Positions 7,844 to 56,600 of a stretch of 64,000 bases of DNA are shown piece after piece. The notes below the pieces were generated by a model. The model ran no database searches. It had not been told where the DNA came from and saw nothing but the letters and a program-made list of their open reading frames with translations. The first letter of the stretch is position 1. Each line of letters opens with the position of its first letter. A program made the position numbers and the translations under genes. Origin of the DNA: Raphanus sativus (lineage: Eukaryota; Streptophyta; Magnoliopsida; Brassicales; Brassicaceae); contig NC_079515.1 in the NCBI RefSeq assembly GCF_000801105.2, forward strand, positions 25,443,407 to 25,507,406, written 5' to 3'.

Positions 7844-8567
7844 GAGAAATACTCGGGTTCACCCCTAGAGTGAACCTTTAGGTTCACCCAACCAATAGGA
7901 TTTCGTTATTTTAAATTCAGTATCTTTAAAAAAAGGAAACAATATATTGTCAAATTTTATTATGTTTTTAAAATAAAAATAAATAGAAAATAATAGTAGT
8001 CACAAAAAAAGATTTTATATTTAAAATACCGTCATCAAAACACTAAACCCTAAATTCTAAACCCTAAATCATAAACCTTAAATCCATGGTAAACCCTTGG
8101 ATAAATCTTAAATCTTTGGATTGTTTTTTAAAAATATTTTTAACCAAATCAGCAAAATACTAAACCCTAAACCCTAAATACTAAACCCTAAACCCTTGGG
8201 TAAATCATAAACCCTTGGGTAATCATAAACCCTTGGATAAATCCTAAACCATAGGATTTAGAATTTATCCAAGCATTTTGGATTTACCAAGGGTTTAGGG
8301 TTTATCCAGAGGTTTAGGGTTTAGGATTTAGGATTTATGGTTTAGGGTTTAGGGTTTAGTATTTAGCTGACGGTATTAAAATGTATTTTTCTAAAACTTA
8401 TCTTTGTTTGCAACTAATATTAATTTTTATTTTTTAGTCTAAAAATATTAATATAATTTGACAATATTTTGTTTCCTTTTTTAAAAGATACTGAATATGA
8501 AATAACAAAATCCTATTGGTTGGGTGAACCTAAAGGTTCACTCTAGGGGTGAACCCAAGAATTTCTC
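7844..8567. mobile_element. Mutator-type MITE, 724 bp
   Basis: Both ends carry a long inverted repeat of about 65 bp beginning GAGAAATNCTYGGGTTCACC. The element is flanked by perfect 9-bp direct repeats, ATTAATTAC at 7835-7843 and 8568-8576, the length made by Mutator-like transposases. The interior is non-coding and contains many telomere-like CCCTAAA/TTTAGGG variants in inverted arrangement, so the whole can fold back. It is nested in the Helitron. Confidence 0.85.
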
Positions 8568-10023: not shown

Positions 10024-11170
10024 TCATCGACCATCAACCACTACTTGCTTTGAAATTTTGTTTTTTTTTATATGGTTTTGAATTGCCACTGTACGTCCGC
10101 CCTCTTGTTGATTGCTCGTAGGGGTTCGATGTTACTGCAGCACCATTCTCGATTAACCCAGTGAGAGCACACTACTGTGATGATGGTTGTCCTGACTTAG
10201 TCTTCCTTTATTCCAGAATAGGCCTTCATCGTTACAACTTTCTCCAGGTTCTAAATAGTGTTTCTTTGCCCCCCCCCCCCCCTCTTTTTTAAATGTATAG
10301 ATCTATTTGCTTGCTCGTTCTCATTTCTTTTTATTTTTCAAATTTAGGGCAAAAAATTGCAGCTCAGTAGCGTAAAGAAATACACCAAACCCAGTTGTTC
10401 TCATGTTAACACTTACTGCATCACTTTGGAAGCCGAGGATCCAGACATCTGCGGTTCTCTCCAAACTTTTCAGACCAAAGTTAGTGAACAAAGATTCCGC
10501 AGATTTGATCTGAAGTGCAGTATTGCTAGACCTCTAGGTAAATATTTCATTATTAGTAAGTAGTTCACAACAAGTCATATCATGTCTCAGTTAATCTATC
10601 TTTGTATAGGTGAAACAAATAAGACCATCACAGGTGGCTATAGCTTTGATAAGAGTCCCAAAGTGCTCGAGTTTCCTCAAGAGAACCCTTTTGTTGAAGA
10701 TGGCGGCACAAACCGATTTTACTTGGTAAATTGTTTGTTTTGTTGTTAATTTTTTTTTTTTTTTTATGATTATAATCAACAGCTATTAATTAGTGATATA
10801 TACTATCTTCTTTTTTATTTTTCAGCTCAAGGATTCAGAGCTTCAAGACAATGATTGGATCCGTTTGTACTTGGAACTTGCAGTTGCTACATCCAATAAG
10901 AAAATTGGCCGTGATACGCACAGCCTGGACAGTTTGAAGATTCTGAAAGTGGCTATGGAAAGTACCCAGGGACTTTGCGACTTTGATGCAGTTTTCTACA
11001 TAAGGTACGAGGACTCTTGCGAGGCTCGAGTTGGTAAGGATGTCCATCGCGTTGCTATTGTCAGAAGAATCTTGGATAAGCAGTCGGAACTCTTGAGTCT
11101 CTATGGTTATAACCAGAGCATAAACAAAAGTGCTTCCGTTGAAGCTTGCTCGTCCTTTGCACAAGACTAG
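9786..11170 (+). CDS. UPF0725 (DUF626, EMB2204-type) protein, five exons
   Basis: The exons are 9786-9971, 10122-10247, 10348-10537, 10610-10725 and 10826-11170, all with GT-AG borders, and the frame is open through 320 codons. The product has a strongly basic start (RKAKMGRR, many Arg), then the family opening GPEEIKERHALLRIKYYQAL, INPVRAHYCDDGCPDLVFLY and GLHRYNFLQGKKLQL. It ends with YIRYEDSCEARVGKDVHRVA and RILDKQSELLSLYG. The family is expanded in Brassicaceae and has no known biochemical activity. The first ATG (9786) adds an Arg-rich leader; the in-frame ATG at 9879 (MARKFMIGPEE) fits the family start better, so the true start is uncertain. Intron 1 contains a (TAA)n run. Confidence 0.85.
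9977..10023. repeat. (TAA)n microsatellite
   Basis: About fifteen TAA units occur inside intron 1 of the UPF0725 gene, directly after its splice donor. Confidence 0.9.
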
Positions 11171-12764: not shown

Positions 12765-12880
12765 ATATGCATGCATTTAAATTTAATACAAATCAATACC
12801 GTATTCGGTAGCATATTCCAACAAATCCGCAGCCGTGTGTCTATGACCATCCCGATCAAATATCTTACCGCCTACGTATC
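12765..12880 (-). pseudogene. fragment of a third GMC oxidoreductase copy (exon 2 end)
   Basis: The stretch matches the exon 2/intron 2 border region of the GMC gene at 25456-25640: the same GCATGCATTT intron start, then the codons around the CCATC-GATCAAATAT block that encode the FDPDG region. About 65 bases with the splice donor and exon end are missing, and several substitutions are present. It lies just downstream of the first GMC gene, so it is probably a leftover of a further tandem copy. Confidence 0.65.
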
Positions 12881-13016: not shown

Positions 13017-15672
13017 TCATGCTTCTTCTTTAGTTTCCAGAAAATCCGCTCTCTCTCGAAGAATCTTCTGCCCCATATACCTACCGAGCATCATGATCGT
13101 AGCTTGGGGATTAGTCCCTGGGGTCTTGAGAAACGTGGATGCATCAATGACCCTCAAAGCATCAATCCCTAATACTTTGTAATCATTGTCGACCACTTTT
13201 CCAACTTGACAACCTCCATGGTAATGATAAATAGTCATCACCGTATCTTTACAATATTGCTTCAAATCGAACAATGATTGTATGTGCCTTTGCCTCACAT
13301 TGATGGGCAGACCAAGAATGAAATCTAACAATCCCCGTCCGGTCACTCCAGGTAACATGTACTTGGAGTACTTCTTCGAATCTATCACTTTAATTATAGT
13401 ACTAAGTCCTTCAACACAGTTCTTCAAATCTTCTTGTTCTTGGTAGTAGTTAAATGTCACTGAAGGATTATCGTCTGGATTCGTGTTCCGCAGTTCTAAA
13501 TGGCCTCTCGAGATCGGCCAATCAACTTTCTGAACCATCCCTCCTGCTTGTGCTGTCACATTAACTCGAAGATCCAATAACTTGAAAAAGCGTGAGAGGG
13601 TTTTGGTGGGAAGTTTCATCTGCTTATATAAAACATCATCCAAAAATTTACATATAGTCTCTAAATAACTCTAGTAGTTAAATGATGGAGATAGTGACAA
13701 AAAAAAATGATGGAGGTATATTATAGAAATACCTCATTGAGAACATTTATAACAGCACTGAAGAAGCTATGCGTCAAACTAATAGAGAGACTTAACCCAC
13801 TCCCGCCTTCAATGTAACTACCAAAATGGGGGATTCCAGCGACTTGGACAAGGGACACTTCTACGGGTTCAGGAGATGGGATGAGGACAGCGTTCATCGG
13901 ATTATCACACATTCCTTGTCCCACCATGGGTTGATCTAGGATTACCGGTTCCACTCCATGGTCTGCTAGATGAGACGCAGGGCCAACACCACTCAACATA
14001 AGCAGCTGAGGGCTAGAGATGGCCCCGGCTGATACGATCACCTCATTAAGTGCGCTATGTGCCGCTAGTTTTGCCGTGTGGAACACTCCATTGGCATCCC
14101 GGAAGATCACCCCATTTGCCTTGGGCCTCATATTTCCTGTAAAAAATGTAAGAAAATCTTATCTGAACCGTGGGAAAATAATGTGTGTGTGGTAAAGGAC
14201 AAATGACTGTGACGGATGACAACGGCCAAAATGATAACAATAATTTCATTTTCCTTACAGACACCAAAGCGGACAATTGAAAGTCACCGTTTAAAATGAA
14301 GCTTTAGGACAACAAGAAGTTTATAATTTGAATCTTGAGTTTGTTTTAACCATGTATCACAAAACATGTTATTAGCATATACTCTTAAGACATCTAGTAA
14401 ACAAACATAAAAAAAAATCATAATAAGGAGTAGCAACAATTTAATTTTTTTTTTCTTGTTTATGTTGGTCAAGAAAAAAAAAGTATTAACTAAATAAGTT
14501 CTGACAATTTTCTTTGTTTTCTTCTAGACCAATAATTTAATTACATTTAAGATAAGTCTATCTATATCTTCCTCATCTTACAGTCTTGTCGTCTCCTTCT
14601 TCGATCATAGATATCTTTAAAGATTAATCGAGCATTTCTAGCTAGACCAAAATCCGAACGTTTTCACATTGAATTTAAAACATCAATATCTCTCCCAAAT
14701 GGGAAAACATTTGTTTCTCTTTCAAAGGCTCAACTAAAAGAACATTTGTAGTGTGTTGAAGTCAGGACTAGCTAGTCTAAGATCCGCTTGGTTCATCAAT
14801 CTTAAACTTCATATAATGGAAAACCTAAAAAGGGACCTTTATATAGTAACTATTAATCAAATTACCTGTGGTGGTGAAGAGAATCTTATGAACAGAAGCG
14901 CGCAAGTAAACAGTAATCTTTTGCGGATCAGCATACTCCAATAGATTCGCCGCCGTGTGTCTCCTACCATCCGGATCAAATATCGTACCACCAACTTTCG
15001 TCCCATGAACATGTTCGTACGTGAAGCCATTGTAAGGAGTCACTCCAGCCTCCAAAAGACCATCTATAAACGCCGTTTGCCATCCTTTAATCTGTGGTTC
15101 GAACACCAGTTTCTTCTCGACCCACTCGTAAGCAGCTTCTACCTCTTCTCTCACCCAACCAGCTTCCGCCACGTAATCATCTTCCGCACGTGAGTAGAAT
15201 CCAGCGTTTAGCACTGTTCCTCCTCCGAGCACGCGTGCGCGTGTGTTGAAAACGCCGTCTTCGGAGATGAATAGCTGAGACCACGAGTTTGGAGTTGTGT
15301 TCAAGTACGTGGTCAAGAAGTTTCCGATGTCTGTGGCCGTGGGGTTGTCGTAAGGGGACCCACCACGTTCGAGGAGCAAAACGGTGGCGTTTTGAGATAG
15401 CGTTGCGGCTAGTGCACATCCGGCGGTTCCTCCTCCGATGACTATGTAGTCGAAGTGAGATAAGGTTGGTGCTGATGTTGCATCTTTCAGAAAACTATAG
15501 TGACCAGCTTCACGACAGCAAATTTTTATTAAGTATACATAACCCAAAGAATCATAAAATGATTAGTGAAGGAGGTAAAATATATTGTACCTTTGTCGGA
15601 ATAACACGAGCCATGGAACATGAAAACTGCGACGCTAATCAAACGAAATAATCGGAATATATGAAAATCCAT
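13017..15672 (-). CDS. GMC (glucose-methanol-choline) oxidoreductase, HOTHEAD/mandelonitrile-lyase-like, copy 1
   Basis: There are four exons on the minus strand: 15672-15591, 15507-14866, 14136-13733 and 13619-13017. Together they give a 576-residue protein, the usual length. Exon 1 encodes a hydrophobic signal peptide (MDFHIFRLFRLISVAVFMF). Exon 2 opens with the FAD-binding motif [19 protein letters not shown]. The GMC signatures [15 protein letters not shown] and [16 protein letters not shown] follow. The C-terminal part holds the catalytic HYHGGCQVG and the TNPQATIMMLGRYMGQKI end. Family members are secreted or ER flavoenzymes; plant relatives include HOTHEAD and mandelonitrile lyases, but the substrate here is unknown. 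Intron 2 is 729 bp. All borders are GT-AG with matching phases, and it looks functional. Confidence 0.9.
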
Positions 15673-17875: not shown

Positions 17876-20151
17876 TTATCTTCGGAAAGCCTCCCTCTCT
17901 CGAAGAATCTTCTGCCCCATATACCTACACATTTTATAACTCTCCAACAGTCACATCTTATATTAAATGACACGTCTTGATTAGTTTGTTTCATTTAATT
18001 TAAGCATGTGTTTACCTTCCGAGCATCATGATCGTGACTTGAGGATTAGTCCCTGGAGACTTGAGAAACGTAGATGCATCGATGATCCTCAAAGCATCTA
18101 TACCTAATACTTTGTAATCATTGTCGACTACTTTTCCAACTTGACAACCTCCATGGTAATGATAAATAGTCATCACGGTATCTTTACAATATTGCTTTAA
18201 ATCGAACAATGAGTTTATGTGTCTTGGCCTCAGATTGATGGGAAGGGCAAGAATGAGATTTAATAGTCCACGCCCGTTTAGTCCAGGGTACTTGTAACTG
18301 GAGTATCCCTTCGAATCTATCACATTTATGATAGCACTAAGTCCTTTAACACAGTTATTCAAATCATCTGGGTCTTGGTAGTAATTGAATGTCACTGAAG
18401 GGTTATCATCTGGATTTGTGTTCCGCAGCTCTAAGTGACCTCTCCAGAGAGGTCCAGACACTTTCTGAACAATGATACCCGCTTGTGTAGTCACGTTCAA
18501 TCCAATATCCAAAGATTTCAAAAGGTTTGAGATGGATTGGCTAGGGAATTTTAGCTGCATAATAAAAAAATAGTACATAGCCTTGTGTTAAACCAAACTT
18601 ATAACATTTTAGTGTGTTATAATTGATCATATATAATCTCTGTCAACTAATTTAATTATATACCTTATTGAGAAGATCTAAAACGCCATCGAAGAAAGTA
18701 CGAGTCAAACTAATGGAGAGACTTAAGCCACTTCCACCTTCAACGTAACTAGCAAACTTGGGGATCCCAACGACTTGGACAAGGGACACCTCTACGGGTT
18801 CAGGAGAAGGGATGAAGACCGGGTGCATTGGGTTATCACCCATCCCTTGTCCAACCATTGGGTGGTCTAAGATGATCGGACTCACCCCATGGGCTGCAAG
18901 ATGAGCTGCAGGGCCTACACCACTCAGCATCAATAGTTGTGGACTTGCGATGGCACCTGCTGATAAGATCACCTCACTCCTTGAGTCTTGTACCGCTAGT
19001 TCAGCTGTGTGGAACACTCCATTTGCATCCCGATATATCACCCCATATGCCTTGGGACTTGAATTTCCTGTTAAAAACATATTTTCGTATCCAAATGATA
19101 GATAAAAATGTGTATACTCATGTTCAACTACGAATGGCTGCAATAATAAAATGATAAGTTATACTTAGAAACAACAAAGCTAATTTAAAAGTCACCATTT
19201 CGATCTGAATTGAGATTTAGATGTTATAAAAGGAATTTTCTATTGTAAATTTTAAGTTTGTTTAATTATTTTGTCATGTCTTCATGTCGGTTAGTATTAT
19301 GTACTTGTGTCATAACTATAGACTAGGTAGTAACCCGTGCCTTGCGCGGGATGAGATGGTTAGATCAGCAATTTTTCAAAAATATTAGAAAATATATATA
19401 TATAGTTTGGAATTTGGGTTTTGTGTGTTTTTTTGTGTTTAATCTCGGTGGTGCTGATTTTACGGTATAGACGTCACTGAGATAGAAACATATATAAATC
19501 CTTTACTTGAATGACATGTAAAAATTTACTGGAACCTAAGAGTAAACACAAAACATGTTACCTGGCAACTGCGAAAGCATGTAATCATTTATTTTATCCA
19601 CTTCATCATTTGTGGGAGTGAGAATGACTAGATGTCTATACAAATCTTTAACTGTTGAGGTTTGAAAAGCTTGTCCATAAACCTCTTTTTCCATAGTCTC
19701 AATAGTTTATACATATCACCGGTGTGATTTATCTTACTCTGATTCATTTGCAAGAACTTGCATATAAAGATATAATTATTATTATACAATTTGATTTTCA
19801 TATGCATGATTTTTGTATAATAACATACCTTCCTCGTAGGTCATTGACTTCAAACATGTAAGCATTCCACAGAACTGGCTGTATTCTTTGAACCATGTAA
19901 GAAGAACTGATTTTGTGTATAATATCTAATTCGAGTAAGATAAATATTATTAATATCTAATCAAATTATATGTACGTAAATATTTGTGTAATCACACTCT
20001 TTGCATAGGTTTTATGTATAAATATTATTAACATATAATCAAATTATTATGTATGTAAATTTTTGTGTAATCAAACTTGTTCTATATTTCTTTCTTTGCA
20101 TCTTACTCTCGAACTCATTTTGTTTATCTCTCTATGGCTCTCTCTCTATGG

Positions 20152-20201
<50 letters not shown>

Positions 20202-20549
20202 AGATTTTATCAGTATTGATGAGTATTTAAAAAATAAGATTAAGATTTTAACATATTTTTATTTTAAACATGCGAATCGTATTAATGCCCGCACACGGGC
20301 ATTAATACGATTCTTATGTTTTATGTATAAATATTATTAATGTCTAATCAAATGTTTGATATATTATTAAAACTAAATTTGTTCTTCAGATGTTTTATGT
20401 GTTATTAATATAAATATGTATTATTCAAATACGATTCATATGTTTTATGTATTACTAAAACTAAATTTGTTCTCCATCCGGTCTTTGTGGTTCAAAACTA
20501 TAAGCATTTTAGACATTACTTAATTCAATATACTTTGAGGTTTAAATTA

Positions 20550-20607
<58 letters not shown>

Positions 20608-21504
20608 ATCCCCCTCATCGTAAACCCTTTTTTTTAGAAATATAAAAATGTAAACATTCTTTTAATTCATCGATTATCTTTTAACTACCACAATTTTGTT
20701 TTATATGGGAATGTTTCCTAGTTTAATATTTTATCATGAATTTTTCTTGGGTGAATTACCAACTAATCATAGTTTGTCAATTAATGTACAGTTTTATAAA
20801 ATTTAAATAAATAAAATAATAATAATTTGTGTTAAGTTTTTAAAATAAAAGAAAAATATTATTAGCTGCAAAAAGATGAAATTTTTTTAACAATTTTAAA
20901 ACCGTCACAAAAAATTAAATCATAAACACTAAACACTATACCCTAAACCCATGGACAAAGCTTAAACCCATGGGTAAAAATCCAAACACTAAACCCTAAA
21001 TTCTTGGATATACCCTAAACACTAAATCTCTCTCTCTCTCTCTCTCTCATCGTAAATCTTTTTTTTTGAGAAAAATAAATATGTAAACATTCTTTTAATT
21101 CATCGATTATCTTTTAACTACCACAATTTTGTTTTATATGGGAATGTTTCATAGTTTAATATTTTATCATGAATTGTTTTGGGTGAATTACCAACTAATC
21201 ATAGTTTGCCAATTAATGTACAGTTTTTTAAAATATAATAAATAAAATAATAGTAATTTGTGTTAAGTTTTTAAAATAAATGAAAAATATTAGTAGCTGC
21301 CAAAAGATGAATTTTTTTTAACAATTTTAAAACCGTCACAAAAGAGTAAATTATAAACATTAAACACTATACCCTAAACCCTTGGACAAAACTTAAATCC
21401 TTGGGTAAAAATTCAATCCCTAAACCCTAAATTCTTGGATATACTCTAAACCCTTGGGTAAATCCTAAACACTAAATTGTAAACTCTTGAGTATACCCTA
21501 AACA

Positions 21505-21566
<62 letters not shown>

Positions 21567-22472
21567 ATCCCCTTCATCATCGTAAACCTTTTTTTTTTGA
21601 AAAATATAAAAATGTAAACATTCTTTTAATTCATCGATTATCTTTTAACTACCACAATTTTTATTTATATGGAAATGATTCCTAGTTTAATATTTATCAT
21701 GAATTTTTCTTGGGTGAATTACCAACTAATCATAGTTTGCCAATTAATGTACAATTTTTAAAATATAATAAATAAAATAATAATAATTTGTGTTAAGTTT
21801 TTAAAATAAAAGAAAAATATTATTAACTGCAAAAAGATGAAATTTTTTTAACAATTTTAAAACCATGACAAAAAATTAAATCATAAACACTAAACACTAT
21901 ACCCTAAACCCATGGACAAAGTTTAAACCCATGGGTAAAAATCCAAACACTAAACTTTAAATTCTTGGATATACCCTAAACACTAAATCTCTCTCTCTTT
22001 CTCTCTTTCTCTCTCTCATCGTAAACCTTTTTTTTGAGAAAAATAAAAATGTAAACATTCTTTTAAATTCATCGATTATCTTTTAACTACCACAATTTTG
22101 TTTTATATGGGAATGTTTCCTAGTTTAATATTTTATCATGAATTTTTTTGGGTGAATTACCAACTAATCATAGTTTGCCAATTAAAGTACAGTTTTTTAA
22201 AATATAATAAATAAAATAATAGTAATTTGTGTTAAGTTTTTAAAATAAATGAAAAATATTAGTAGCTGCCAAAAGATGATTTTTTTTTAACAATTTTAAA
22301 ACCGTCACAAAAGAGTAAATCATAAACATTAAACACTATACCCTAAACCCTTGGACAAAACTTAAACCCTTGGGTAAAAATCCAAACCCTAAACCCTAAA
22401 TTCTTGGATATACCCTAAACCCTTGGGTAAATCCTAAACACTAAATTGTAAACTCTTGGTATACCGTAAACA

Positions 22473-22509
<37 letters not shown>

Positions 22510-23084
22510 NNNNNNNNNNNNNNNNNNNNNNNNNNNNNNNNNNNNNNNNNNNNNNNNNNNNNNNNNNNNNNNNNNNNNNNNNNNNNNNNNNNNNNNNNNN
22601 NNNNNNNNNCTCTCTCTCTCTCTCTCTCTCATCGTAAACCTTTTTTTTTTTGAAAAATATAAAAATGTAAACATTCTTTTAATTCATCGATTATCTTTTA
22701 ACTAACACAATTTTGATCTATATAGGAATGTTTCCTAGTTTAATATTTTATCATGATTTTTTGGGTGAATTACCAACTAAATATAGTTTGCCAATTAATG
22801 TACAATTATTTAAAATATAATAAATAAAATAATAATAATTTATGTTAAGTTTTTAAAATAAATGAAAAATATTAGTAGCTGCCAAAAGATGAATTTTTTT
22901 AACAATTTAAAAACAGTCACAAAAGAGTAAATCATAAACACTAAACACTATACCCTAAACCCTTGGATAAAACTTAAACCCTTGGGTAAAAATCCAAACA
23001 CTAAACCCTAAATTCTTGGATATACCCTAAATCCTTGGGTAAATCTTACACACTAAACTGTAAACCCTTGGGTATACTCTAAAC

Positions 23085-23141
<57 letters not shown>

Positions 23142-26100
23142 ATGGATGGGAAGGTCACTTTTTTTTTGCAGGGTCTGGTCTGGTGGTGTAAGCCATGTTT
23201 TTATTGTTGAAGAAAGAAGAAAGGCTTGTTGCCTTGTTTGTGCGTTATCTCTTAGTTTAAAGGAAAGAGCTCACACCTGAAATTCTGAACTATTTATTTA
23301 TTTCCTGTTTCTTCTATATATATTTTTTATTTTTATAAAAATTCTTTCGAGAAAAAGAAATATATTCACAAACTCTCCCTATAAGGAAAAATATATACAA
23401 CTTGTTGCCAAGAATGGAATGAAACCCATTAATATTATTCATATATGTCTTTCTATATGTAGATTTCAAAATTATATTTACTTTTTGTTTAAGATAATTG
23501 ATGATGCATTATGTAGTTAGAGTTAGAGCTGTGCAAATCAAACCAATTATGTAAGCAATCGATGGTAACATTTTTTTAAGAAATGAGTGTCTAGTTTAAT
23601 GTGAACGTATAGTACGAAGAGAAGAGGTGGCGAAGTGGGATCTCACATCATTTTATCGTGGACTATTTCTAGAGAATAATTTTCAAGTTTAAATGATCAA
23701 AGATTCAAGATAAGATAACATCAATATATTAAAAAGAGTTGCTAATGCAAATTTAAGCAGAGTAAATATATAAGTGTTTTGACATGATAACCAAACCAAA
23801 CTCAAAAACAAATGTAAGTCAAAACACTTGCTTCGTTGACCTCTTCAACATTGTTGTCTTCAGTAGGTGTAGCCTTTGACGAACATACCCTCATTAGCCT
23901 CTTCAGACTCACCTTCTCCGGTGTATTTTCCGAGCTGAGCCAATGAATTGGCCTTGGCTCGAGCCAAGAGAGTGGTCTGAGCTGCGTTCACGTTCTCAGC
24001 TCTGCCTCCCCATGTTTTCAGACAAGTGTTCTGTAGAGCACATGCATAGGAGAAGGACACATGCCACGGGTTTGGTGCCTGGTTCATCACGTTCAGGTTC
24101 AATGTTGCCTCCAATTCAGACTGTCCTCCGGACAAGAACTGCAGAAAAAAACAACCAACTTAACTTTTACTTCAAGCAACCAAGATCTAGGTTTTCCTCA
24201 TTAAATTAAAAAAGAAAAGAAACTCATTTTGAAATCCAATAGAGCTTGCCATGATTCCAGGGACGGCTGGAGGGATTCTGTTGCGGAGGAGCTTAAGGGT
24301 GTAGGAGGCAACTTGTTCAGGTGTAGCTCTGTCCTTAGACTCGGCTCGGGAGTCACCATGCCAAGCTTATAAGAGTTTCTTCTTTGTTAATGTATCAAAT
24401 ATTTTCCTTCTCTCTTACAATCTTCCATAGTTACTACTATGTTTCTGCTCATCCCTTAGCTCTCCCTGTTTGCAAACGGCAACCTCATCCGAGTTTAGCC
24501 TTCGCAACTGGAGTTCCAGCCAGTTGTGTGTTCTCACTAACTTTTGTCCTCCTCGTCTACGCTAAGTACTGCCTCATCGATCTCGGGTGAAGAACCCGCG
24601 ACAGAACACGGCAAGACTCGAAGGGAGAGAACGATGACTCGGGTCCATCCATCGTCGACAGGAAATGCTTCTAAGTGTTTTTGGTTCCTGGTGGTGAGTT
24701 TGGTACGATCTTTATCCACATGCTGAGATGAGGATTCAAACTATAAGTTATAATTGTGGTTGTTTGTTCTCGTTTAACGTCAACGCTATGCAAAACGAAC
24801 GTAAACAGAAACAGTTCGAGCATGAAAAAAAAATGATTACGTTTCTTGTCATGGAAGCAAATAAGGAAAGAAAGCAAAGAATTAAATGATCCGTTTTTCT
24901 TAAAATCGCTCACAGAGTGACACGTGGAATGGAGCCTTCTCATACATTCTCACCAAAATCGTTTAAGGAAAGCCTTAAAAATGCTTCTCCTTTAATATAT
25001 AGGAGATTAAATTTGTAAATGTGCGTTTATGAAGTTGTAGCCGTCAGAGAAAATCAAGTACTATTCACATTATATTATTGATTATTAACTAAACATGATT
25101 CTTTAGTTATGGCTTAAAAATATAATATTGGCATTTTTCATCTTACAATATTTTCAACTATATATGCTCTCATTAAATATAATAACACATTCTTAACATA
25201 TCTAATTAATCAGTACAAAATTATAAATTTAAACAAATAAGCAAGTGTTCAAAAAAAAATTGCTTTATATCTTGTTCTTCCTTTCCGACTAGATATTTTT
25301 CTTTTAAAAGGAACATGTCAACTACAAACACAAGTTGTATAAAAAACAAAAGATTAGTTACGTGTATCCTACGCCATCTCTCTCCCCCTTCCTAACCCTC
25401 ACGAGTCATCCCGTCTCAATCTTCAGTCACGACATGCATTATTTTTAGTTTGACATACATGCATGCATTTAATACGAATCAATAATACCTTTAGTGGTGA
25501 AGAGGATCTTACGGACAGAAGCGCGCAAGTAGACAACAATCGTATTCGGATTAGCATATTCCAACAAATCAGCCGCCGAGTGTCTATGACCATCCGGATC
25601 AAATATCGTACCGCCTATTTTCGTCCCGTAGATATGTTCATACGTGAAACCATTGTACGGAACCACTCCGGCTTCCAAAAGCCCGTTTATAAACGCCTTT
25701 TGCCATCTCTCAACCGGCGGTTCAAACGCTAATTTCCTCTCCACCCACTCATAAGCTGCTTCGACCTCATCTCTCTTCCAACCAGCTTCCGCCACCAACT
25801 CATCTTCCGCACGTGAATAGAACCCCGCATTTAGCACTGTCCCTCCTCCTAGCACGCGTGCGCGTGTGTTGAAAACGCCGTCTTCGGAGATGAAAAGCTG
25901 CGACCATGAGTTCGGATCAGTTATGTTCAAGAGTGTGTTTGCGAAGTTCCCGATGTCTGTGGCTGTTGGGTTGTCGTAAGGGGACCCGCCGCGTTCGAGG
26001 ACTAAAACGGTTGCGTTTTCGGATAGCGTTGCGGCTAGTGCACATCCGGCGGTTCCTCCTCCGATGATTATGTAGTCAAAGTGAGATAGCTTTGGGGATA

Positions 26101-26313
26101 ACGTTGCATCTTTCATAAATCTATAGTTTCCAGCTTCATAACAACAACAATATTTCAAGAAAAATGGAATCAATTCACTATTAGTAAAATGCACTAATTG
26201 AATGGTTTGTTGGATGAAATAATAATTGTACCTTCATCAGAATAACACGAGCTGTGGAAGATGAAAATCGCTACGAGAATAAACCGACATGACGGGAAAA
26301 TATGAAAATCCAT
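17876..26313 (-). CDS. GMC oxidoreductase, HOTHEAD/mandelonitrile-lyase-like, copy 2, with a giant intron
   Basis: There are five exons on the minus strand: 26313-26232, 26133-25489, 19067-18664, 18554-18016 and 17924-17876. The joined frame is open and encodes 572 residues. Exon 1 (82 nt) and exon 3 (404 nt) are exactly as long as in copy 1, and exon 2 differs by one codon. Motifs are intact: [35 protein letters not shown] and HYHGGCQVG, with the ending [15 protein letters not shown]. Intron 2 is 6.4 kb because a Helitron lies in it; without that element it would be about 737 bp, close to 729 bp in copy 1. Copy 2 also has a 91-bp intron (17925-18015) that copy 1 lacks. Treating the two halves as separate truncated genes is the alternative; the matching phase and non-overlap favour one gene. 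Confidence 0.75.
20150..20604. repeat. two (CT)n microsatellites
   Basis: Runs of CT/TC cover about 20150-20199 and 20552-20604, with AT-rich sequence containing the palindrome between them. The second run directly precedes the first A unit of the tandem array. Confidence 0.85.
20274..20313. repeat. perfect 18-bp palindrome with CACA loop
   Basis: The arm GAATCGTATTAATGCCCG is followed by CACA and its exact reverse complement. It lies inside the Helitron between two CT runs. The central CCCG/CGGG resembles Helitron terminal hairpins, but no CTAG follows at the expected distance. Confidence 0.85.
20605..23139. repeat. A-B-A-B-(gap)-B tandem array punctuated by (CT)n
   Basis: Five related units of about 420-460 bp follow one another: A1 20605-21026, B1 21049-21506, A2 21564-21986, B2 22019-22473 and B3 22631-23091. 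Each starts with a TCGTAAA block and an A-rich leader, shares ATTCATCGATTATCTTTTAA, and ends in degenerate CCCTAAAC telomere-like motifs followed by a CT run. B units are about 35 bp longer in the CCCTAAAC tail (an extra CTTGGGTAAATCCTAAACAC segment). Part of the array is lost in the N gap. Confidence 0.85.
22510..22609. other. assembly gap, 100 N
   Basis: Exactly 100 N sit within a (CT)n run between B2 and B3. The round number suggests a placeholder of unknown true size. By the alternation seen, at least one A unit may be missing here. Confidence 0.95.
23860..24372 (-). pseudogene. cytosolic fructose-bisphosphate aldolase, 3' gene fragment
   Basis: The last exon (24138-23860) encodes [20 protein letters not shown] to the normal class I aldolase end [10 protein letters not shown] and stop. 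Upstream, 24372-24250 reads MVTP then, after a one-base deletion, [18 protein letters not shown] and [10 protein letters not shown]. The intron between them (24249-24139) keeps an AG acceptor but has a GC donor. The N-terminal two thirds with the Schiff-base lysine are absent. The retained intron and minus orientation, like the host Helitron's, suggest genomic capture. It is non-functional as an aldolase. Confidence 0.85.
24420..24590 (+). pseudogene. possible ATL-type (RING-H2) membrane-segment fragment
   Basis: The plus-strand frame contains [20 protein letters not shown] then VLLVYAKYC. This resembles the single membrane segment near the N-terminus of plant ATL RING-H2 ubiquitin ligases. 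A stop follows and no RING domain could be read. It may be a second captured fragment in the Helitron. The evidence is a short hydrophobic match only. Confidence 0.35.
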
Positions 26314-28484: not shown

Positions 28485-29270
28485 CCTTAGGCGAAGAATC
28501 TTCTTCCAAATCCAAGACCCCAAGTAGCTCTTTTCATTCACACTCCAAAAGGATCCCTTTCGTATGAGATATTTCTAGATCCATTTCACCCATAAAGAAG
28601 CTTTTGCAGAAATAATGCGCCATATAAGCTTTAAGTATGTGACTTTATTTACCTTAGACAAGTTTTTCAAACCTAGTCCCCCTTCTTCTTTTGGTTTACA
28701 CACATCAACCCAAGCTATCTTGGCTTTATGTGTCGACAGAATTGGTCCTGACCAAAAAAAAGCTGAGCAGATGCTGTTAATTTCATTGATACACATCTTC
28801 GGGAGACTAAACGCAAACATCCAAAAATTGGTAATGTTATATATAACAGAACCAATTAGTTGAAGATGACCAGTAAACCTTAGGCGAAGAATTTTCTTCC
28901 AAATCCAAGACCCCAAGTAGCTCTTTTCATTCACACTCCAAAAGGATCCCTTTCGTATGAGATATTTCCAGATCCATTTTACCCATAAAGAAGCTCTTGC
29001 AGAAATAATGCGCCACATAAGCCTTAAGTATGTGACTTTATTTATCTCAGACAAGTTTTTCAAACCTAGTCCCCCTTCTTTTTTTGGTTTACACACATCA
29101 ACCCAAGCTATCTTGGCTTTATGTGTCGACAGAATTGGTCCTGACCAAAGAAAAGCTGAGCAGATGCTGTTAATTTCATTGATACACATCTTCGGAAGAC
29201 TAAACGCAGACATCCAAAAATTGGTAATACTATATATAACAGAACCAATTAGTTGAAGATGACCAGCAAA
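28485..29270. repeat. 393-bp tandem duplication within the LINE
   Basis: Copies 28485-28877 and 28878-29270 align end to end with few differences and no gap. Both keep the same reading frame (KAKIAWVDVCKPK repeated), so the duplication is in frame. Confidence 0.85.
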
Positions 29271-29523
29271 CGTTAGATGTCTCGCAGTCCATATGTATAT
29301 CATATGTAACATATAATGCAAGTATTACATATGTAACATTACATTTGACCATAAAAGAAAAAAATTGTTCACTATTTCTATATTGTATATCATATTTTTT
29401 GAAAACTATATTTGTCCACAGTTATTTACAACAAGTTGTCCATAGTTATGAATTAGGATGAACGGTTGGAAATATTTTACTATATCCTGAAACGTGATTC
29501 GGTTTGAGAAAACATTTTAGTTA

Positions 29524-53652: not shown

Positions 53653-56600
53653 TTAAGCTCGAACACCACGGTTAAGACTCACCATACGGGTTGAGCCATC
53701 CATTTGCATACCACCACCTCTGTTTCCCGACCCAGCTCTTGCTGCATATCCTCCTCCTCGGTTCTGGCCCGACCAGTCTCTAGGCTGTCCTGGTCTTCCT
53801 CCATATCCAGATCTGTTGTTACCTTGTCTTCCTTGTCCATAACTCATGTTGTTGTCCTGCCATCTCCCACCACCTGATGCTGCTGCATAGTCCTGATTGT
53901 TGTCCCTTCTCCTCGAACTCAGATCAAGACCACCTCCACCGGTCCTTGCTTCCATTGCCCTTTCATTACTCTCTGCCAAAACCGATAGTTTCTCGGTTAG
54001 CTGGAAAGCCAATGACTGTAATCTGCTGTGTTGCACTTCATGGAAGACGATGCATCGTGTTGGCTGGTCCCAGCTTGCGTGAAGCTCTTCATTGATCATC
54101 ATCTTACTCACAATGCTGTGAACATGTGCTTCGGTGACGTCAAACATCTTAGCCAGCTGTTCAAGGCTCAGGGACTCATAGGAGCTCGAGTATGTGAACA
54201 GGTAAGTCCTTAGAGCCTCTTCCTTGATCCTAGCTTTCACCATGTCGAGGATACTGTCCCGGTTCTTGAGCATTCTCCAGACATCAAGAGAGTTCAAAAC
54301 ATCGAACGCGGTCTGGAAATCTCCTTTGGTCAGGGCTCTGGTGGCTGCCATGACGTGATCACGTACATTTTCGGGTGGTGCATTGAACGCTTGCCTCTCG
54401 CTGATCTCAAGCAGGCGACGGAAATTCTTGCTGATCACTCTGCGTCTGGCTTCAAACGAGTTTGCCGCCATGTTTGGGACTTCAAGTAGCATGGCACCGA
54501 TGAGGTGAACAGCCTCCAGGAGCTCGAGGTTTATGTGCATGTGGTATGGCATTTGCCTTCTCCTCTCCATCCTTTCCTGTTAAATCACCAGATGTTTAGA
54601 TCACATATAAGTATACTGAATGAAACAACATGACCATAAGCATCCATGTTGAAATAGAGAAACAGATTTGTACGTAAAGGAAACAAAAACCCATGCACCA
54701 GAAATATAATACTAGAAACTATTCATACTCAATATGATTAGTCAGACTCATAGTGTCCGTAGTAGTGCTTCAGTCAAAACCATATACTAAACAATTCATT
54801 TTTTTTTCACATTCTATTTGTATCAGAAGATAACAGAAAAGAGTAATACTGAATGAAACAACATGACCATAAGCATCCATATTGAAATAGAGAAACAGAT
54901 TTGTACGAAAAGGAAACAAAAACCCATGCAGCTGAAATATAATACTAGAAACTATTCATACTCAATATGATTAGTCAGACTTATAGTGTTCGTAGTAATG
55001 CTTCAGTCAGAACCATATATTAAACAATTCATTTTTTTTTCACCTGCTATTTGTAATCAGAAGATAACAGAAAAGAGTAATTACCTGTTCGGGTGTCTTC
55101 TCATGGTATCGACTTTGAGAAACGCCTTGGGCAAGTAACTCCCTCACTCTCTGACCAGAGTAGAGTTCGGAGAGGCAGCTATGGGATTCAGTGATCATAC
55201 CAACACGGAAGGCACAAAGGCCAAGCTGCGCCATGGTCCTGTTGAAGAGAATCTGTGTTGAGATATCCATGTGCTGAATGTTGTCTTGGAGATGACTCAT
55301 TAGCAACAAGTCTCTAGCAGTCCCAAAGTTGTCCATTAAGGCATGGTGATAAATATCACATAGCATTGCACGTGCCTTGGTCCGCTCATCTCCATTTCGG
55401 TAGATAAGAGACACAAGAGTATCCATCATTGCTCGGCCACTCTCCGGGAACGTAGGCTTACGGGGAACAACCTCAGGAACAACAATGAATGAAGAAATAG
55501 GTCCACTTTCCTCTTCGGCATCCTCAGCTTCTTCATTTTCTTCAACCAACTCAGCCAGCTTCCTCATAGCTTCATAAACTTCCTGGGGCTTGTAATATAC
55601 TGACTCAACTCGTCTCAAGGCTACCTTAGCAGCAGCTTTGTAATCACCCATCCGCTCAAAGTAGTCCTGGATGTTCTGAGCAAGGGCCAACAACATGGGC
55701 TCATCTCTCAGTCTCTCAACATACTCACGGGTGTGAGGGTCAATGGACTGCAAACTCTTGAAAAACTCAGTATCGATCCTCTCAATGAACGCAACCAAAT
55801 TCCCCCAGACACGGATAGTTCCATCATAATCAGCTGGCTTCGAAGTTTCATTCTCATCAGGTTCGATTGTGTCGTCCACAACGATGTTAGTGTACTTCAC
55901 GAGAATGTCCAGTATGGTGAGCATGTTGAGCACGCATTTCTTCCAGACCTTGATAGGCATATGTCCGGTGAGACCTGGATTCACATCGAACTGAGCTGAG
56001 ATAACGCTGAACAAGATCTCGAGCTTCTGAGCAGGAGTCTTGGCAATCTTGGTCAAGTGTGTAAGCTGATCAACCAAGTCAAAACGAGCAGTCCCCTTCC
56101 TCCCACGAGCAGCCATAATCTCCTTAAACTTCTGGTTGACCCAGTCCCAGGTGATCTCCTTAGGATCTTTACTAAGCAGCTTCTCCATCTGCTTATCTTT
56201 CTTGTTAAGCATAGTCTCCCATCGGTTATCAACAGGCTCATCAACCTCCTCGTCAGTCACATCCCCTTTGCTAACATCATCGTCCTCAAAATCACTCTCG
56301 CCTTCCTCATCGTCATCATCCTCATCCTCTGGCTCATTCTCCTCCTCAACTTCCGGAGCCTCCCTGTACTTGTTGATATCATCTTCGTACAGCTTATTGT
56401 TCTTCTTCAGCTTCTGCCTCATCGCGTTCAACGCCTTGGAGTTGCTAGGACTCATCTTCTTCTTCGCTTCCTTATTAGCCAGAGCCTCGTTCAAGAAATC
56501 CTCAAGCATAACGAGCGTCTTGATGTACAAGGTAGGAGGCTTGACAGCCTCCGTGATCCTCATGACCTTCTCGAGCTGCTTGTTGACCTTGTCGAAATTC

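Follow-up and report, generated by a model that had tools for sequence, protein, structure and literature searches.

The locus analysed here raises the question of whether two pieces of a GMC oxidoreductase gene, lying on either side of several kilobases of partly repeat-rich DNA in the radish genome, are two genes or one, and what the DNA between them would do to the message. The window, that is, the whole stretch of DNA that was analysed, comprises 64,000 nt of Raphanus sativus (NC_079515.1, positions 25,443,407 to 25,507,406), and unprefixed positions below are counted from its first letter. The two pieces can be joined into a single gene model, GMC-B, which has five exons on the reverse strand:

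26232..26313, reverse strand: GMC-B exon 1, 82 nt, with the start codon at 26313
25489..26133, reverse strand: GMC-B exon 2, 645 nt, ending in phase 1, with the donor GT from 25488
19068..25488, reverse strand: GMC-B intron 2, 6421 nt as assembled, housing a Helitron
18664..19067, reverse strand: GMC-B exon 3, 404 nt
18016..18554, reverse strand: GMC-B exon 4, 539 nt
17876..17924, reverse strand: GMC-B exon 5, 49 nt including the stop codon

When the exons were joined, all four introns proved to have GT-AG borders, and the resulting frame of 1719 nt comprised 572 codons plus a stop. No internal stop, frameshift or splice-site loss was found across the five exons. The original prediction had proposed one gene with exactly these five exon lengths and 572 codons, and our check of exons, phases and GT-AG borders bears it out. 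The predicted product matches PF00732 (78.6 bits, cut-off 23) and PF05199 (87.3 bits, cut-off 24.6), so that both the GMC_oxred_N and the GMC_oxred_C domain lie above the curated cut-offs, as expected of a HOTHEAD/mandelonitrile-lyase-like protein. Its closest solved structures are PDB 8s2y and plant hydroxynitrile lyases. By its sequence, GMC-B is a predicted GMC oxidoreductase of the HOTHEAD/mandelonitrile-lyase-like kind.

The raw window looks as if it contained two separate, truncated genes whose sequences had never been joined. We dropped this reading, to which we give practically no chance, because the exons complement each other exactly in length and phase and because full-length predicted orthologues exist in other crucifers, namely in Eruca (572 aa, 90%), Brassica (570 aa, 88%), Sinapis alba (561 aa, 90%) and B. 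carinata (552 aa, 91%). Together with the Helitron ends described below, the same two observations strongly support the conclusion that the halves were formerly one contiguous gene, which is now interrupted by a Helitron. In a genome-wide search with exon 2 of GMC-B, Raphanus sativus returned a single 100% match. A search of a protein collection with the first half of GMC-B gave 56 proteins, none of them radish-named among the 90% cluster representatives shown; the second half gave 658, and among the 120 listed there was one partial protein from radish (P0183, 318 aa, 65%), a more distant paralogue. Since this search displays 90% cluster representatives, it says nothing on the radish annotators' model of GMC-B.

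The element inside intron 2 has the following ends:

19323..25006, reverse strand: non-autonomous Helitron, 5684 nt as assembled, from 5' TC to 3' CTAG, flanked by a host A and a host T
24983..25006, reverse strand: Helitron 5' terminus TCTCCTATATATTAAAGGAGAAGC, with the TC at 25006
19323..19350, reverse strand: Helitron 3' terminus, a hairpin at 19334-19350 and then CTAG at 19323-19326

Read on the reverse strand, the insertion runs from the host A through TCTCCTATATATTAAAGGAG...CCCGCGCAAGGCACGGGTTACTACCTAG to the host T, and the Helitron has the same orientation as GMC-B. For comparison with its family, we sampled 20 stretches of 10 kb, the best-scored candidates among those listed of 191 satellite matches; all 20 loci also contain non-satellite pieces of the same Helitron family. 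The 5' TC and the 3' CTAG, which fits the CTRR terminus of plant-type Helitrons, are common to the other copies with readable ends. The base before the 5' TC is A in 12 of 13 such ends (G in the exception, L037), and the base after the 3' CTAG is T in 17 of 18 (A in the exception, L020). The insertion between A and T lacks a target-site duplication, and the flanks of the copies look unrelated. A short hairpin lies about 10 bp ahead of the 3' end, as in plant-type Helitrons. This hairpin, CCCGCGCAAGGCACGGG, has one mismatch, where the window copy carries A and the 18 other readable copies carry G, and it folds only moderately well (z -1.58, with 16 of 200 shuffles doing as well). The ends of the other copies fix those of the window copy to the base, in agreement with the predicted termini at 25006 and 19323, TC and CTAG in their A and T context. 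The 11 family copies with both ends range from 3260 to 6878 nt; that at L038 contains a gap.

The Helitron contains a single complete stop-to-stop ORF of at least 100 aa. It has 103 aa and runs antisense to the aldolase piece described below. Judged by its ORF lengths, the element lacks the Rep/Helicase protein that is expected of autonomous members only, and is non-autonomous, as is allowed in the family. Rfam gave no match at gathering thresholds. Part of the element is repetitive and incompletely assembled:

20127..23139, reverse strand: CT microsatellites and a satellite-like repeat with a period of ~430-440 bp, inside the Helitron
22510..22609, no strand: assembly gap of 100 N within the Helitron repeats, inside GMC-B intron 2

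Because of this gap the length of the Helitron is provisional. The predicted position of the element, in intron 2 of an intact GMC gene, stands, and the accompanying figure of 5.7 kb is to be read as the assembled size only. The description of the intron as 6.4 kb of satellite-like DNA did not hold, since the repeat-rich part spans only ~3.0 kb (about 20127-23139). Elsewhere in the window, at 8043-8366, there are telomere-like CTAAACCC/TTTAGGG repeats with AAACCCTTGGGTAAATC motifs, which show short matches of ~63-83% to the Helitron repeats and are perhaps, judging from these matches, a relic of a related element.

The gap falls between exon 2 and exon 3, as it would if a wrong scaffold join had brought the two halves together. 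We regard such an assembly artefact as highly improbable. What lies on the two sides of the gap adds up to one gene and one Helitron, the latter with a matching A and T site, and exon 2 has its single perfect match in the genome here. Of the 20 other loci, two, L031 and L038, likewise have gaps inside the Helitron repeats, while the gap at L022 falls outside the element.

Another argument for an empty site had been the length of intron 2. Without the Helitron it would measure 482+255=737 nt, close to that of a tandem paralogue:

13017..15672, reverse strand: GMC-A, tandem paralogue with an intact frame, an intron 2 of 729 nt, and no intron 4

As lengths, the predicted values of 737 and about 729 bp are right; as a sign of homology, they fail. 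The best match between the flanks of GMC-B intron 2 and intron 2 of GMC-A or of a third tandem gene, GMC-C, covers 44 bp (E 0.002), whereas intron 2 of GMC-A matches that of GMC-C over 628 bp, and intron 2 of GMC-C is 1700 nt long. We therefore no longer take the agreement as proof of the empty site; on this comparison it is probably a coincidence.

GMC-C lies ~10 kb before the window (L039 and L002, C5:25426300-25435885); its frame is intact and it has kept intron 4. The last exon of GMC-A (13017-13619) lacks this intron, which is present in GMC-B, in GMC-C and, judging from exon spacing, in a paralogue on C3 (L008), so that GMC-A has apparently undergone a precise loss of intron 4. Downstream of GMC-A, at 12810-12872, there is a fragment of GMC exon 2 of 63-75 bp. 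The neighbouring genes in the window encode a cyclophilin, PRA1, TRM5 and eIF3c, a neighbourhood that we take to recall the Arabidopsis block AT3G56060-AT3G56150. A 233-bp tandem duplication (94%) at 54613-55081 lies largely between two ORFs of the eIF3c gene. A second one, of 393 bp (95%), is found at 28485-29276; nearby ORFs resemble by eye the remains of a non-LTR retrotransposon, and the one ORF of this region that was searched had no match in Pfam. An MS5-domain ORF (PF04776), of a family termed Brassicaceae-specific in the title of a paper, occupies 10790-11170.

A tree built from 16 proteins placed GMC-B and its Eruca, Brassica, Sinapis and B. carinata relatives in one clade of six with support of 100/99. 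In the same tree, radish GMC-A paired with a B. rapa protein and GMC-C with a B. carinata protein, indicating that the GMC duplications predate the radish-Brassica split. The branch of GMC-B (0.059) was the longest in the six-row clade, where the others ranged from 0.019 to 0.050. At 292 otherwise invariant columns GMC-B shows 6 private changes, among them S to W at residue 414, and the other 15 rows show 3 to 9. Private changes at invariant columns are thus not in excess in GMC-B.

How much an intact frame says about function depends on how long the Helitron has been in place. Over the 759 bp of its 3' end, the window copy differs by 13 changes from the nearest sampled relative (98% identical), and its tip branch is 0.012, estimated from 18 of the 20 loci (L024 was dropped for its short match, and L030 had no match). 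The insertion is therefore fairly young. Substitution rates of 0.7 to 1.5e-8 per site per year place it no further back than about 0.8 to 1.7 million years, a bound that closer unsampled copies, which may exist, would lower. For a neutral gene, with the indel rate set at 0.05 to 0.15 per substitution, the probability of having acquired no stop or frameshift is 0.05 to 0.25 if the age equals the tip branch of 0.012, the upper value; at half that age it rises to 0.22 to 0.50. A gene without function could thus also have kept an open frame by chance, so the intact frame of GMC-B is weak evidence of function.

The Helitron carries a piece of another gene, in the sense orientation of GMC-B, which the original prediction did not mention:

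23160..24361, reverse strand: captured tail of a class-I fructose-bisphosphate aldolase gene, in the same orientation as GMC-B, with an approximate boundary near 23160
23860..24138, reverse strand: aldolase last exon with the stop codon, an AG acceptor just before it

The tail begins within the penultimate exon and runs through a GC-AG intron and the last exon with its stop into the 3' UTR and the flank downstream of the gene. The last exon matches PF00274 (E 2.7e-34), with chloroplastic aldolase 7b2n as its best PDB match. The tail is collinear with the aldolase gene at C4:302328, at 91% over 703 alignment columns for the gene part, and the collinearity runs on into the downstream flank at about 80-82%. 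That the aldolase intron is retained in the Helitron suggests that the capture took place from DNA. The genomic aldolase gene has a longer pyrimidine tract before this acceptor than the captured copy does.

We considered a capture private to the window copy and ruled it out. A genome search with the tail returned 13 rows: the window copy, C4:302328, five rows at three other places, and six further rows at 75-94%. At the three places the tail is nearly whole at C2:7514953 (97%), present in part at C4:41838540 (97%), and split into three pieces at C9:18232556-18236657 (95-98%). At the C2 place and at C4:41838540 there are matches to the Helitron 5' end and repeats as well, and the aldolase downstream flank occurs in 10 of the 20 sampled Helitron loci.

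IBM1-like silencing or intronic polyadenylation, as raised in the original prediction, may occur here, and the captured tail in sense gives the idea of polyadenylation a concrete basis. The last exon with its 3' UTR is a candidate for early termination of the GMC-B transcript, as judged from the reading frame: if exon 2 were spliced to it, the hypothetical product would consist of 242 GMC residues followed by VLVRRTV and a stop, and the C-terminal GMC domain would be lost.

Our preferred explanation of the locus, which we hold with somewhat better than even confidence, is that of a formerly contiguous GMC gene with a Helitron insertion, in which transcription would still start from the gene's own promoter and would have two outcomes. 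In one, exon 2 would be spliced to exon 3 across at least 6.4 kb, giving the normal 572-aa enzyme. In the other, the transcript would end early, the likeliest decoy being the captured aldolase last exon with its acceptor, stop and 3' UTR. The net expectation would be less full-length GMC-B mRNA than before the insertion. This degree of confidence covers the explanation as a whole, which at its extreme overlaps with the loss of the gene's expression.

That extreme, a null allele in the making in which the insertion has turned the gene off, is possible but rather unlikely. A close precedent is BrTT8 of Brassica rapa yellow sarson, where a 4320-bp Helitron is reported in intron 2 and no mRNA was detected (PMC3439492). 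This element resembles that of GMC-B in its length of several kilobases, its 5' TC and 3' CTAG, the hairpin near its 3' end and, again in a crucifer, its place in the second intron, the features by which we liken the two. It differs in that an effect on mRNA is reported for it (PMC3439492); the sense aldolase tail is a feature of the GMC-B element, known here from genome sequence. The tandem paralogues GMC-A and GMC-C, whose frames are intact, could cover a loss, and the long branch of GMC-B fits one as well; the lack of any stop, frameshift or splice-site loss in GMC-B speaks against it.

The Helitron might on the other hand be a harmless passenger, its intron spliced efficiently and the enzyme gene unaffected, a reading we likewise hold to be rather unlikely. 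No splice site is damaged and the frame is open, and the number of private changes at invariant columns falls inside the span seen among the relatives. Intronic transposons are also common: in B. rapa, 9586 gene models are reported to have insertions in introns (PMC9241368), and in rice more than 10% of genes are reported to have intronic heterochromatin, which is described as common in actively transcribed genes (PMC7145194). Given BrTT8 (PMC3439492) and the B. rapa count, the earlier judgement that such an intron is unusual for a small crucifer gene finds no support. The same B. rapa study, by contrast, describes genes with intronic transposons as expressed less on average (PMC9241368). The Helitron of GMC-B is, moreover, long and repeat-rich and contains a sense gene tail.

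Two known systems bear on the early end that forms part of our preferred explanation. In maize RabGDI-alpha-hel, a Helitron-derived exon is used in the host mRNA (PMC6981192). As predicted for GMC-B, an intronic Helitron there bears an exon able to enter the host message; the maize exon replaces exon 10 and is documented in RNA, while the GMC-B candidate is a predicted terminal exon (PMC6981192). In Arabidopsis, premature polyadenylation within intronic transposons is reported in epigenetic mutants including ibm2 and edm2, that is, when heterochromatin marks, IBM2 or EDM2 fail (PMC10241880). PPD7 and RPP7, under IBM2/EDM2 control, resemble GMC-B, as far as its sequence tells, in having a transposon-bearing intron that is transcribed across at a risk of proximal polyadenylation (PMC10241880).

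A more speculative possibility, which we think distinctly unlikely as a whole, is that the Helitron family carries a gene tail from site to site. It would have distributed the 3' end of a photosynthetic-type aldolase gene over several sites of the radish genome, and the sense intronic copy would yield a chimeric GMC-aldolase transcript that truncates an enzyme gene, in a balance with full splicing set by the chromatin of the intron, with CMT3/IBM1 activity reportedly weakened in the genus. In heterochromatic introns of the IBM1 type, which carry H3K9me2 and DNA methylation, full-length mRNA depends on IBM2/EDM2. Among the literature matches listed, none described a Helitron-borne gene tail ending a host transcript, which does not prove that no such case exists.

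Overall, the locus is a clear and fairly ordinary case of a known kind, a Helitron in the intron of a crucifer gene, which may shorten or silence the message. For annotators, the two seemingly truncated GMC genes here are a single gene. In R. raphanistrum, CMT3 expression is reported to be absent and IBM1 expression to be reduced (PMC11265718), a reported weakening, in that species of the genus, of the silencing pathway thought to mask such gene ends. In this context GMC-B offers a clean natural test of a plant gene's ability to cope with an intron that is long, rich in repeats and already furnished with a gene end.
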